Below the pieces are notes generated by a model. It ran no database searches. It saw only the letters and a program-made list of their open reading frames with translations, and was not told where the DNA came from. From a virus, in the IMG/VR virus record IMGVR_UViG_3300025057_000047, positions 1 to 22,616 of that record: a DNA stretch of 22,616 bases. One strand, written 5' to 3'. How positions within the stretch are numbered: position 1 is the stretch's first letter; every line of letters begins with the position of its first letter. Positions 1,623-5,878 of this stretch are shown in pieces. The translations under genes and the position numbers were made by a program.

Positions 1623-1910
1623 ATGAACTTAGAAGATTGGTTAAACGGAGACATAATGAGCGAGTGGCCAAGCGTTAGGCATTACATTAGCTACTCTTGC
1701 TGGTCTGAGTTGCTCAATGAGACATTTATAGATTCTATTGCAGGTTTTGGTTCACTAGATAATGGTTTGTCTGAGGAGAAGTGCAAGGAGATCTGTATAG
1801 GAATTACAGAGGAAGGAAGTGAGGCACTAAAGGAAGTATCTGAAAGGATGTGTAGTTTATTAATGGAGAGGATAAAGCATGTGGCAACAACAGGAGGAAC
1901 TGGAGAATGA
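1623..1910 (+). CDS. Hypothetical early protein (95 aa)
   Basis: The frame is open upstream, but ATG 1623 is chosen because AGGAGAG lies just before it. The protein is acidic and helical, with WLNGDIMSEWPSVRHYISYSCW near the N-terminus, and no motif I can assign. It is the first gene of the rightward operon and its stop overlaps the start of the annealing-protein gene as ATGA, so it is translationally coupled to recombination functions. A role in that module is inferred only from position. Confidence 0.62.
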   Translation: MNLEDWLNGDIMSEWPSVRHYISYSCWSELLNETFIDSIAGFGSLDNGLSEEKCKEICIGITEEGSEALKEVSERMCSLLMERIKHVATTGGTGE

Positions 1911-2503
1911 GCGATTTTGCTACGATTTACTCAACATTATCACAAGTGGATTTATCGAAGCTAACCGAGAAAAAAATGGGTTTAACGTACCTGAGTTGGG
2001 CGAACGCATGGGACGTGATGATGGCGCACTACCCTACCGCAACATTTCAGACCCTCCCTTCTGAAACGTTTTCAGATGGCACTGTTGAGGTGTGGGTAGA
2101 GGTCACAGTCTGTGACCACTCGAGACGTATGTGGCTTCCGGTAATGGACAATAGAAACAATGCAATCCCTAGCCCCTCCTCCAGAGCTGTTAGTGATGCT
2201 CGCATGAGGTGCCTAGTTAAGTGTTTAAGTTTGTTTGGATTGGGTCTTTATATTTATCAGGGTGAAGACCTACCAAAGCCAAAGCCTGTCGATATGGAAG
2301 CAATTAAGGCTGCTGCGGTTAGCATACTTAGCTACATACATGGTGAATTTACGGATGATGAGAAATACAGTTCTATAAAGGAAATATTTGGAGAAATGTC
2401 AGAAGATGAGAAATCAGCTATCTGGGTAGCTAAGTCAAACGGTGGTTTTTTCACTCAACAAGAAAAGGCCGTAATCAGAACAGCAGCGAGTTATACATCA
2501 TGA
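1907..2503 (+). CDS. Single-strand DNA annealing protein, DUF1071/Sak3-like
   Basis: This 198-aa protein matches the DUF1071 pattern of phage recombinases: LTYLSWANAWDVM (residues 26-38), a beta region VEVWVEVTV, LPVMD (77-81), and the signature MRCLVKCLSLFGLGLYIYQGEDLP (100-123). The family is related to Red-beta/Sak annealing proteins, which pair complementary single strands during phage recombination and replication. The C-terminal third is helical and variable. The start overlaps the upstream stop (ATGA), and its own stop overlaps the SSB-like gene the same way, so annealing protein and SSB are made as a coupled pair. Confidence 0.85.
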   Translation: MSDFATIYSTLSQVDLSKLTEKKMGLTYLSWANAWDVMMAHYPTATFQTLPSETFSDGTVEVWVEVTVCDHSRRMWLPVMDNRNNAIPSPSSRAVSDARMRCLVKCLSLFGLGLYIYQGEDLPKPKPVDMEAIKAAAVSILSYIHGEFTDDEKYSSIKEIFGEMSEDEKSAIWVAKSNGGFFTQQEKAVIRTAASYTS

Positions 2504-2888: not shown

Positions 2889-3263
2889 ATGAATATCAAT
2901 GAATTAACTATCGGACAAGCAAAAGAACTAACCAGAATTTTTTCAGGAGAATCGAAAACAGAAAATGATTGTTATTTTGGTATAGGTAAGTACGTTATTG
3001 TTAGATGCAGAGATGCGGGTGTGCACGCTGGCACTCTTGTTAGTAAAAACGGTCGATCGTGCGTGCTTAAAGATTCTAGGCGCCTTTGGTATTGGAAAGC
3101 AAAAAAAGGGTCATTTTTAAGTGCCGTTGCAAATTACGGATTACATTCATCTAGTAAAGTGGGCTGTGAAGTTGACATAGAACTAACAGAAAACTGCGAA
3201 ATAATTATATGCACACCTGAATCAGAAGAGTCAATAATAGCAATGGAGCCCCACAATGAATAA
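2889..3263 (+). CDS. Conserved phage protein, DUF6948-like
   Basis: ATG 2889 follows AGGA by eight bases after a 74-base spacer in which I see no gene. The 124-aa protein has KYVIVRCRDAGVHAGTLV, then VLKDSRRLWYWKAKKGSFLSAVANYGL, then an acidic strand-rich end (VDIELTENCEIIICTPESEESI). This arrangement (IVRxxxAGVxxGTL...LxxARRxWxW) is one I recall from phage DUF6948-type proteins of unknown function. Its last eight bases overlap the start of the Gly-repeat gene. Confidence 0.6.
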   Translation: MNINELTIGQAKELTRIFSGESKTENDCYFGIGKYVIVRCRDAGVHAGTLVSKNGRSCVLKDSRRLWYWKAKKGSFLSAVANYGLHSSSKVGCEVDIELTENCEIIICTPESEESIIAMEPHNE

Positions 3264-3666
3264 CGGATACGGATACGGAAGCGAAAACGGAGACGGAAGC
3301 GGAAGCGGAAGCGGAAACGGAGACGAAGACGGATACGGATACGGAGACGGAAGCGAAAACGGAGACGGAAACGGAAGCGGAAACGGATACGGAAGCGGAA
3401 ACGGATACGGAGACGGAGACGGATACGGATACGGAAGCGGAAACGGATACGGAAGCGGAAACGGAAGCGGAGACGGAGACGGATACGGATACGGATACGG
3501 AGACGGAAGCGAAAACGGAGACGGAAACGGAGACGGATACGGATACGGAAACGGAGACGGATACGGATACGGAGACGGAAACGGATACGGAGACGGAAAC
3601 GGGTACGGAGACGGATACGGAGACGGAGACGGAAGCGAAAACGGATACGGAGACGGATACGGATAA
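3256..3666 (+). CDS. Gly-X dipeptide repeat protein
   Basis: ATG 3256 has GGAG seven bases upstream, inside the end of the previous gene. Apart from the first residues, the 136-aa product is Gly at nearly every second position alternating with Tyr, Ser, Asn or Asp (GYGYGSENGDG...), with rare Glu. It is strongly acidic, has no Lys, Arg or Cys and no hydrophobic core, so it is probably disordered or forms an unusual repetitive fold. All six frames are open through the repeat, so an open frame alone proves nothing; the ribosome site, the overlap and the stop directly at the repeat end are the arguments for translation. Similar repeats next to DUF6948-type genes are known to me from phages; function unknown. 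Confidence 0.6.
   Translation: MNNGYGYGSENGDGSGSGSGNGDEDGYGYGDGSENGDGNGSGNGYGSGNGYGDGDGYGYGSGNGYGSGNGSGDGDGYGYGYGDGSENGDGNGDGYGYGNGDGYGYGDGNGYGDGNGYGDGYGDGDGSENGYGDGYG
3262..3665 (+). repeat. 6-bp (GGANRC)n tandem repeat tract
   Basis: About 400 bases consist almost wholly of hexamers GGA followed by TAC, AAC, GAC or AGC. Breaks are few: GAA replaces GGA in the SEN units and in one DED, and one GGG occurs near 3601. A longer unit, GGAAGCGAAAACGGAGACGG, recurs, showing duplication at scales above the hexamer. Such a tract is prone to slippage and length change. Confidence 0.9.
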
Positions 3667-4220: not shown

Positions 4221-4471
4221 GGATTAAGGATATGGTATGGGGTATTAATGAAGTAAAGGACGTGGAATTGGATCAGGTTCCGGTGGTTAAAGCTGGGCCT
4301 GTAGATGGAGCGCAAGGTGTTGTTGTTTGGCATCTGCCAGGAGGATTCACGACTAGTAACTATGACGCAGTACGGGACTATTGTTCAGCAATTAAAAAAG
4401 ATCGTTTGCACTTAAAAGGGATTGAAATACTGGAGGGTCTTAAGGATGAGCTTAATAACGGAGTTGTATAG
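4217..4471 (+). CDS. Hypothetical protein (84 aa)
   Basis: It is coupled by ATGA to the previous gene. The N-terminal part looks beta-rich with repeated Val (VKDVELDQVPVVKAGPVDG, then GVVVWHLPGGF); the C-terminal third is helical (DAVRDYCSAIKKDRLHLKGI). The family is unknown. Its last 26 bases overlap the start of the membrane-protein gene. Confidence 0.6.
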   Translation: MRIKDMVWGINEVKDVELDQVPVVKAGPVDGAQGVVVWHLPGGFTTSNYDAVRDYCSAIKKDRLHLKGIEILEGLKDELNNGVV

Positions 4472-5003
4472 CAAGATAGTTCCAAAGGACGCAACTAAGT
4501 GGACTTTATCGACGGGTGATTTTGGGATTAACTGCATTTTAGGAGCCACTTTGATTTATATGTGGCCCTCCCCTCTCATGATTATGTGTGCAATGTGTCT
4601 TTGGTTCGCCACCATGGGGATATCATATCGTATACCTATTTTTGCCCAAGATTGCGCCCGTGTCGGGGGTGGATGGAGTTACACAGTTCTAACACTAGCT
4701 GTGTTCTGCTCTATCCTACTATCAACATCAGGACTAAACATGGTTGCTAAGATTGCGATCGATCAAGCCAAGGAGTCTGGGAAATGGGGTTCCGACTTCG
4801 CAGCTTTTGACGTGGGGTTCCTAGTTATCGCTGGTGAAATTGTTATTACATGGATGATGATGTTCTTCTCCGTAGCGATGTCAGTGTGCAACGGTATGGG
4901 ATCTTACATGCGTGAAAAAGCATTAATTGAAGAGGAACGAAAAGACAAAAAAGAGAAATCTGAGGGAAAGTCACAAACCCCGAGCCTGCGGAAAGTGTCA
5001 TAA
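4446..5003 (+). CDS. Multi-span membrane protein with -1 slippery site near its 3' end
   Basis: ATG 4446 is preferred over a TTG at 4422 because GGAGGG lies eight bases upstream. The 185-aa product has about three to four hydrophobic spans: residues ~27-62 (INCILGATLIYMW, then LMIMCAMCLWFATMGI), ~77-100 (YTVLTLAVFCSILLS) and ~122-150 (FLVIAGEIVITWMMMFFSVAM). The C-terminal tail is highly charged (LIEEERKDKKEKSEGK), probably cytoplasmic. The gene carries an in-phase G GGA AAG heptamer (4964-4970) ten codons before its stop, so a second, longer product is plausible. It lies in the early/middle operon, not among tail genes. Function unknown. Confidence 0.75.
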   Translation: MSLITELYSKIVPKDATKWTLSTGDFGINCILGATLIYMWPSPLMIMCAMCLWFATMGISYRIPIFAQDCARVGGGWSYTVLTLAVFCSILLSTSGLNMVAKIAIDQAKESGKWGSDFAAFDVGFLVIAGEIVITWMMMFFSVAMSVCNGMGSYMREKALIEEERKDKKEKSEGKSQTPSLRKVS

Positions 5004-5009
5004 ACGGGG
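4964..5009 (+). promoter_or_regulatory. Candidate -1 programmed frameshift signal
   Basis: GGGAAAG (4964-4970) is read in the membrane-protein frame as G GGA AAG, the exact phase for a tandem -1 slip, and is the heptamer used in the lambda G/GT frameshift. After seven bases, CCCCG (4978-4982) can pair with CGGGG (5005-5009). CTGCGG in the loop (4986-4991) can also pair with CCGCAG (5031-5036), giving a possible pseudoknot. The -1 frame has a TGA at 4961-4963, just before the heptamer, and is then open to 5263. Confidence 0.55.
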
Positions 5010-5263
5010 AGTCAGAATTCGTTCCAGGCCCCGCAGCATCGGACTTGGAACTAATTCCGCCAGAGGAACGAATTGCAGGAGCGTTTCTAGAACTGGTGGA
5101 TAAAACAGAAGTGGAAGGCAGAAGGGTAAGGATGTATGGGAACGGAAAGAGGGTAAGTCAGCAAACTGTCAGCAACCGAGCAGGGGTCCAAAAGCAAAGA
5201 GTTGTGGACTGGTTGAGAAGGATGGCAGAGAGCGGTGATGACATATTGGATGTTGGAACTTAG
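4970..5263 (+). CDS. HTH-like domain, probably -1 frameshift extension of the membrane protein
   Basis: This frame has no ATG or GTG start before its conserved-looking part. The only early candidate is a TTG at 5045 (72 aa), which lacks a recognisable ribosome site. Read from the slip site, it adds 97 residues to the first 175 of the membrane protein (272 aa total). Extension residues 1-30 are an acidic, Pro-rich linker. Residues 31-50 are helical (PEERIAGAFLELVDKTE), and residues 60-86 (VSQQTVSNRAGVQKQRVVDWLRRM) resemble a helix-turn-helix. The fusion would place a DNA-binding-like domain on the cytoplasmic face. Independent initiation at TTG 5045 remains possible, since TTG starts appear elsewhere in this phage. 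Confidence 0.6.
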   Translation, partial: VTNPEPAESVINGESEFVPGPAASDLELIPPEERIAGAFLELVDKTEVEGRRVRMYGNGKRVSQQTVSNRAGVQKQRVVDWLRRMAESGDDILDVGT

Positions 5264-5274
5264 GAGCTCAAGGA

Positions 5275-5457
5275 ATGAGGTACTTAATTTTAGCGGTAGC
5301 AATTTTATCACTAACAGGATGTTTTGATTACAAAGACGAGAAGTATCATCTTACGGCAGAGGAGATAGAGCGGTGGGACAAGAAATTTCCATGCGGATTA
5401 CCATCTAGTCCACTGGCCCCAGCTTTACGGAAGCCAAAACCAGAGAGGTGTAGATAA
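5275..5457 (+). CDS. Small lipoprotein
   Basis: ATG 5275 follows AGGAG and AAGG signals. Residues 1-15 are a lipoprotein signal ending in LSLTG with Cys16 as the lipidation site. The mature chain of 45 residues has two more Cys, a charged helix (TAEEIERWDKKF), and a Pro-rich tail (SSPLAPALRKPKPERCR). The size and Pro-rich tail recall outer-membrane spanin partners, but the gene is far from the lysis genes and on the other strand, so a surface or exclusion role is equally possible. The stop overlaps the next start as TAATG. Confidence 0.68.
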   Translation: MRYLILAVAILSLTGCFDYKDEKYHLTAEEIERWDKKFPCGLPSSPLAPALRKPKPERCR

Positions 5458-5639
5458 TGGAGATATTTATTTTGACACTATTTCTATGCCCCGCAAATTT
5501 AACAGATTGCACGCACGATCAACTTGTACCAGAAAAAACGAAACAGTTTGAACAGTTTGATGCGTGTGAAAATCTGGGTAAGGCACTGGTTGATCTGGGC
5601 GAATACGACGATCACGCATGTAGGAGACACGAACAATGA
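5457..5639 (+). CDS. Small Cys-containing, probably exported protein (60 aa)
   Basis: TAATG coupling to the lipoprotein gene sets the start. The N-terminal 13 residues are hydrophobic (MEIFILTLFLCPA) but lack a basic N-region, so export is likely but not certain. The rest is acidic with three more Cys, at 18, 37 and 55. It shares size and style with the exported 80-aa protein that follows (a Cys near 'ACENLGKAL' versus 'KCREAKEEK'), suggesting related small periplasmic proteins. Family unknown. Confidence 0.58.
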   Translation: MEIFILTLFLCPANLTDCTHDQLVPEKTKQFEQFDACENLGKALVDLGEYDDHACRRHEQ

Positions 5640-5878
5640 AAAAGGCGATCATATTATTAATGTTATGCGGTACGGCTAATGCAGCTAGTTATGATCTTAT
5701 CGGTAAAGATCACGGCATGATAACTAGCCAGAAAACCTACGAATCTTTGGCAAAATGCAGAGAAGCGAAAGAGGAGAAAGGGACAGGTTGGACGCAGTAC
5801 TTTTGCTCGAAGTCTTTCCCAAAGGAGAAGCCAAACCAGCGAGCGGTTCCGGTTGAATCTTTGAAGGTATCAGGATGA
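5636..5878 (+). CDS. Small secreted protein with signal peptide (80 aa)
   Basis: It is ATGA-coupled to the preceding gene. Residues 1-16 are a clear signal peptide (MKKAIILLMLCGTANA, cleavage before Ala17-Ser18). The mature 64 residues contain two Cys (C41, C57) that could form one disulfide, in the context TYESLAKCREAKEEKGTGWTQ and FCSKSF, and a basic, Pro-containing tail. This 'S-x-x-x-C...C' layout is common in tiny periplasmic proteins of phages and their hosts. Specific role unknown. Confidence 0.66.
   Translation: MKKAIILLMLCGTANAASYDLIGKDHGMITSQKTYESLAKCREAKEEKGTGWTQYFCSKSFPKEKPNQRAVPVESLKVSG

Follow-up and report, generated by a model that had tools for sequence, protein, structure and literature searches.

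The virus gene that begins at position 4446 of the window (the whole stretch of DNA analyzed here, 22,616 bases, positions 1 to 22,616 of virus record IMGVR_UViG_3300025057_000047) very probably produces, by programmed -1 frameshifting, a minor membrane-tethered form that carries a winged helix. The gene would be translated mostly into a 185-aa inner-membrane protein, and some ribosomes would slip back one base at the heptamer G_GGA_AAG (4964-4970) and go on in the -1 frame. This slip would append a CRP-type winged-helix domain, preceded by an acidic linker, to give a 272-aa form, with the DNA-binding-type domain on the cytoplasmic side; the short form may constitute the bulk of an oligomer, and the long form may supply a few DNA-contacting subunits. 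We infer the slippage itself and its frequency, as well as the binding of DNA and the membrane topology; the set ratio of the two products and the tethered DNA binding that were put forward in an earlier note on this DNA are likewise putative. The frameshift reading is supported by the codon statistics of the -1 frame, by the lack of a usable start in that frame, and by a syntenic gene in a distantly related phage, designated G006, that has the same architecture and a different strong heptamer.

Genome type and early operon

The window comes from a podovirus-like phage. Profile matches on its minus strand identified an SU10-type major capsid protein, a P22-like head-closure protein, and a DNA-ejection protein, and the plus strand carries an early-type operon containing a Sak annealing protein. 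The gene for this ssDNA-annealing protein (1907-2503, plus strand; Pfam PF06378, E 2.4e-36) stands at the head of a syntenic block, and beside it is the gene (2500-2814) for a protein whose C-terminus is an SSB-like DIPF tail. A phased T_TTT_TTC was seen 19 codons from the end of the Sak gene (1907-2814 region), where a -1 slip would join Sak to the 2500-2814 protein; because the ATGA overlap of the two genes gives such a frame relation automatically, this site is probably not programmed.

Two syntenic markers lie further along the plus strand, a DUF6948 protein (2889-3263; Pfam PF22253, E 6e-27; 39.5 bits for the L163 counterpart) and a protein of Gly/Tyr/Asp/Ser/Asn repeats (3256-3666) that was recognized from its sequence (70% over 53 aa to L163:15219-15401). 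A Pfam TrAA12 match of the repeat protein was set aside as a low-complexity match. The DUF6948 gene was adjoined by a short Gly-rich repeat protein of the GYGDGSG type, whose repeats are encoded by hexanucleotide tandem repeats, in all six phages inspected for the pair, namely the window (2889-3666), G006 (L163:15219-15781), Pectobacterium phage Ymer, Vibrio phage IKEMa6-1, Iodobacter phage PhiPLPE, and MW202478; the loci compared, besides the window and L163, were L289, L290, L291, and L293. Judged from these sequences, the two genes are a conserved pair. Three small exported or lipoprotein-like ORFs were noted immediately 3' of the -1 ORF described below, at 5275-5457 (with a lipobox-like LSLTGC), 5457-5639, and 5636-5878.

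Membrane gene and slippery site

The zero-frame gene (4446-5003, plus strand) starts at ATG 4446 with a strong Shine-Dalgarno (SD) sequence (-9.8 kcal/mol) and ends at TAA 5001-5003. Its 185-aa product is predicted to contain 3-4 transmembrane (TM) segments and gave no family in Pfam, PHROGs, or NCBIfam. The C-terminal tail is K/E-rich, with 8 K/R and 7 D/E after the last hydrophobic segment, and is probably cytoplasmic as judged from the charge distribution, which in the membrane part would permit both termini to be in the cytoplasm. The AlphaFold2 (AF2) model of the membrane domain was poor (pLDDT 53). The site lies within the Sak/DUF6948 operon in a gene encoding a membrane protein, in agreement with the earlier description of a non-tail early gene.

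The last stop in the -1 frame, TGA at 4961-4963 (plus strand), sets the 5' limit for any productive -1 shift, and the slippery heptamer G_GGA_AAG follows it directly at 4964-4970. The codons GAG GGA AAG at 4962-4970 place the heptamer in exact zero-frame phase, as had been claimed, so that an X_XXY_YYZ sequence of the kind found at bacterial -1 programmed frameshift sites is present in phase and inside the frame overlap. From 4964 the -1 frame is open to TAG 5261-5263 (99 codons, of which 97 follow the slip), and the trans-frame fusion is 272 aa long, with EGK followed across the junction by VTNPEPAESVINGESEF...; the position of the TGA, the 97 open codons, and the lengths of both products were thus confirmed. 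Sites of the G_GGA_AAG and A_AAG types show a strong tendency to shift in E. coli (PMC5009743). Phased XXXYYYZ heptamers occur at 25 of the 6,790 codon positions in the window genes, GGGAAAG at 4964 being one of them. Transcriptional slippage at the site is unlikely since there is no long homopolymer there, and slippage at the A6 run at 4947-4952 would terminate at TGA 4961.

The two frames could also be the remains of one ancestral gene that was split by a one-base indel, either a true mutation or an assembly error, with the heptamer present by coincidence. In principle, a change of one base within the 40-base overlap would be enough to join the frames, and the window arrangement is known from one metagenomic contig only, which fits an indel. 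Counting against this explanation, a phased XXXAAAG within the 13-codon overlap is expected in only about 2% (1.6-2.2%) of codon-resampled sequences; the further evidence that bears on it comes from the relative described below.

Candidate RNA structure downstream of the heptamer

A 7-nt spacer (4971-4977) separates the heptamer from a candidate stimulatory stem-loop, CCCCG 4978-4982 with CGGGG 5005-5009 (4978-5009, plus strand; -8.9 kcal/mol). Both elements are present where they had been reported, but the stability of the stem is only ordinary to moderate for its genome, in which 16.5% of 45-nt windows are equally stable (z = -0.17 and -1.09). The pseudoknot that had been proposed from a second pairing, CTGCGG 4986-4991 with CCGCAG 5031-5036 (4986-5036, plus strand), did not find support: the pairing is possible, but the pseudoknot would have long loops, and RNAfold favors a nested minimum free energy fold in which CTGCGG/CCGCAG replaces the CCCCG/CGGGG stem. 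The stem and pseudoknot are the weakest part of the frameshift case.

Coding character and possible starts of the -1 frame

The -1-frame ORF (4964-5263, plus strand) comprises an acidic Pro/Ser-containing linker followed by the putative winged-helix domain and, on the basis of its codon score and the AF2 model, is read as the C-terminal part of the 272-aa fusion. Over 4971-5263 the codon score was +15.7 in the -1 frame versus -7.1 and -1.5 in the other frames, and over 4970-5044, ahead of any start codon, it was +2.6 versus -8.2 and -9.0. Frame +1 scores were likewise positive in parts of the region. The -1 frame remained open in 60 of 5000 dinucleotide shuffles; the region is purine-rich, and open frames are therefore commoner in it.

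The only standard start codon ahead of the domain is TTG 5045-5047 (plus strand), which lacks an SD sequence (SD energy +1.1 kcal/mol versus -3.1 to -12.2 at 14 neighboring starts), and GTG 5096, GTG 5111, and ATG 5132 all lie inside the domain. The earlier statement that no ATG/GTG start or ribosome site precedes the HTH-like part accordingly holds for the domain as a whole, with the qualification that these three codons occur within it. Two separate genes are nevertheless conceivable, the winged-helix protein being made alone from TTG 5045 (72 aa, by re-initiation after TAA 5001-5003) or from ATG 5132 (43 aa). A start at TTG 5045 would retain the entire modeled domain, and ATG 5132 has a weak SD sequence (-4.6 kcal/mol); the former is set back by the missing SD sequence, and the latter would remove the first helix and most strands of the domain. 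Two separate genes are considered unlikely, since the segment ahead of TTG 5045 is already coding-like in the -1 frame and the equivalent ORF of G006 contains neither ATG nor GTG and has its sole TTG 29 codons from the end.

Predicted winged-helix domain

Single-sequence AF2 prediction of the -1 ORF gave a linker modeled as disordered and, at residues 33-89, a compact domain. The pLDDT of the domain was about 90 in the best model, the only one of the five to reach high confidence. The modeled domain (5060-5230, plus strand) consists of a helix, three strands, and two HTH helices, which is the composition of a CRP-type winged helix. When it was used as a Foldseek query, the best 50 PDB matches listed were all CRP-family proteins or regulators (best E 0.022). 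No Pfam match above the cut-off was obtained for the domain, and the sole family hint was HTH_Crp_2 (E 0.064, 13.7 bits versus a cut-off of 27). On the strength of the model and the Foldseek matches, which uphold the HTH-like domain noted earlier in the -1 frame, the domain is taken as a CRP-type winged helix, predicted to be of the DNA-binding type. Sequence comparison with the PDB also matched the -1 ORF with methyl-coenzyme M reductase (E 0.0006); this match is to an enzyme segment, has no support from the fold model, and was set aside.

It would be extremely improbable, in our estimate, for the -1 ORF to be non-coding, with the 185-aa protein as the sole product and a domain match that reflects a chance model. 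The compact single-sequence fold with its consistent CRP matches, the full-region codon score in favor of the -1 frame, and the same arrangement with a decisive codon score in G006 all count against a non-coding ORF, while the purine-rich composition, the partly positive frame +1 scores, the confinement of high AF2 confidence to one model in five, and the lack of sequence homologues of the -1 ORF fit it. Taken on its own, the window is a good, not a decisive, case of frameshifting.

A syntenic gene with the same architecture in a related phage

The most similar full-length phage found was G006 (IMGVR_UViG_3300031977_002164, 35.7 kb, loci L162/L163). The structural genes common to it and the window are mostly 45-69% identical, and the early block runs in the same order in both, with Sak, the SSB slot, DUF6948 (Pfam matches in both), the Gly/Tyr-repeat protein, and small ORFs. 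At the place of the window's membrane gene, G006 has a 257-aa gene with 4 TM segments, and no similarity between the two membrane proteins was detectable by blastp (E 1.5). In its overlap a phased A_AAA_AAG (L163:13625-13619, minus strand) directly follows TGA TAA in the -1 frame; a phased XXXAAAG is expected there in 0.3% of resampled sequences. A 9-bp hairpin is located about nine bases 3' of this heptamer, and 2.6% of the windows of the G006 genome are equally stable.

The -1 ORF of G006 spans 119 codons, its stop overlaps the ATG of the next gene, and its frame remained open in 3 of 5000 shuffles; its codon score was +12.9 in the -1 frame versus -28.1 and -28.7 in the others. A second frame encoded in homologues as a separate gene with its own ATG and ribosome site had been named in the earlier note as evidence that would count against frameshifting, and the start codons of the syntenic G006 ORF, set out above, do not fit that pattern. 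The C-terminal part of the ORF weakly matches winged-helix families (GntR, 14.8 bits with a cut-off of 27; PHROG transcriptional regulator, E 0.004). The -1 ORFs of both phages look like winged helices; the single-pair alignment of the two domain sequences (E 0.035) is only suggestive. What the two phages have in common at the syntenic place is the architecture and not the bases, and the heptamers differ. A shared arrangement at the same genomic place with different sequences suggests a deliberate device.

Homologue searches and control screen

No sequence homologues of the membrane protein, the -1 ORF, or the fusion were found in IMG/VR, GenBank phages, plasmids, a set of one genome per species, or 50 relative records, and none of the G006 gene were found in the collections searched. 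Relatives were gathered through their exonuclease, capsid, and Sak neighbors (240 loci), and only G006 among them has both the Gly/Tyr-repeat gene and the architecture. The architecture was absent from further relatives by Sak (80 loci) and by capsid, from relatives in GenBank whose capsid or Sak is related, and from GenBank phages that have DUF6948; many of these loci are fragments, in which absence is weak evidence.

A control screen was performed on 3,503 ORFs of at least 100 aa across the phage loci gathered. In 54 ORFs the extension in the -1 frame is long and has no ATG/GTG close by, and 5 of the 54 have a phased heptamer. Three ORFs with at least three TM segments have a long -1 extension that lacks a start, and the two of these that carry a heptamer are those of the window and G006. 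A membrane gene with a phased heptamer and a startless -1 extension is thus a rare arrangement. Because this rare arrangement is seen again in the one phage whose gene order matches, two indels or sequence that is never read are hard to accept. The split of one ancestral gene by an indel is decidedly unlikely, given that the syntenic G006 gene is interrupted in the same way, with a different strong heptamer and a good hairpin; for errors to have struck this domain boundary twice independently, each time on a phased heptamer, would be very unlikely.

Two other loci were noted during this work. At L237:4102-4434, an SSB-like gene with a DDIPF tail has a phased C_CCT_TTT at its stop, and the -1 frame runs 125 codons (to about 4800) into an HTH-like ORF; this is possibly a fusion by frameshifting, or a coincidence. 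At L184:15173-15559 (minus strand), a phased T_TTT_TTC with a 95-codon -1 extension looks like an ordinary tail chaperone frameshift of the lambda G/GT type.

Possible role and significance

If programmed frameshifting is accepted for the window gene, two roles appear about evenly plausible for the long form, namely the anchoring of phage DNA or of a Sak/SSB recombination-replication complex to the membrane, and membrane-bound control of transcription. Membrane anchoring of replicating DNA is favored because the neighboring genes encode an annealing protein and a protein with the SSB-like tail DIPF; by analogy, a ToxR/CadC-like regulator is equally open. The chances seem balanced that the window and G006 genes represent an undescribed type of phage gene, in which a multi-TM protein gains a winged helix in its minor form by -1 frameshifting, and in which the architecture is kept across related phages while the heptamer, the membrane part, and the type of winged helix are all replaced; the ratio in which tethered DNA-binding subunits are made would then be under selection, and not the sequence.

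If frameshifting indeed occurs here, it is a new use of a known mechanism, in which the frameshift sets how many membrane subunits bear a DNA-binding domain, and it would let a phage tether DNA or the control of transcription to the membrane by simple means and in a fixed stoichiometry. Recoding may also be findable without sequence conservation, by looking for a common architecture with phased heptamers at matching positions in the gene order.

Comparison with known systems

To our knowledge, including the literature searched, -1 frameshifting in bacteria and phages is known to yield tail chaperones, capsid variants, transposases, and a small number of host proteins. We found no phage protein described in which a frameshift joins a membrane part to a winged helix in that literature, which was covered in part. 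The lambda G/GT frameshift, which serves tail assembly, uses the same heptamer as the window site, GGGAAAG. The A_AAA_AAG of G006, with its hairpin about 9 nt downstream, resembles the -1 sites of the IS type and of dnaX, whereas neither the window gene nor that of G006 encodes a transposase or a clamp loader. The logic would be that of lambda G/GT, with an excess of a short protein over a long form that arises when ribosomes shift to -1 close to the 3' end of the gene (PMC5009743). The lambda products, however, are a tail-assembly chaperone encoded in the tail module. The window gene does not belong to this soluble, tail-module class: it encodes a membrane protein that would gain a winged helix, it lies in the Sak/SSB early operon with DUF6948, and the structural genes, of podovirus type, are on the other strand.

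ToxR and CadC are likewise single proteins that fix a DNA-binding domain to the inner membrane (PMC5430869, PMC7496328). They are encoded in one continuous reading frame, in contrast to the window domain, which would be added by frameshifting C-terminal to 3-4 TM segments. The phi29 proteins p16.7 and p1, for which membrane anchoring of phage DNA replication has been proposed, are phage membrane proteins that contact viral DNA or replication proteins, and would be functional analogues only; no frameshift is described for them in the available part of the source (PMC4974454). T7 genes 5.5 and 5.7 are adjacent phage genes with a frameshift-compatible overlap, the second of which encodes a winged-HTH-like protein (PMC5569994). 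In T7, Gp5.7 is made as a protein of its own, and expression of a 5.5/5.7 fusion was reported not to occur (PMC5569994). Unlike the window gene, the T7 pair has no membrane part; as an analogy, T7 gene 5.7 is the closest phage parallel.
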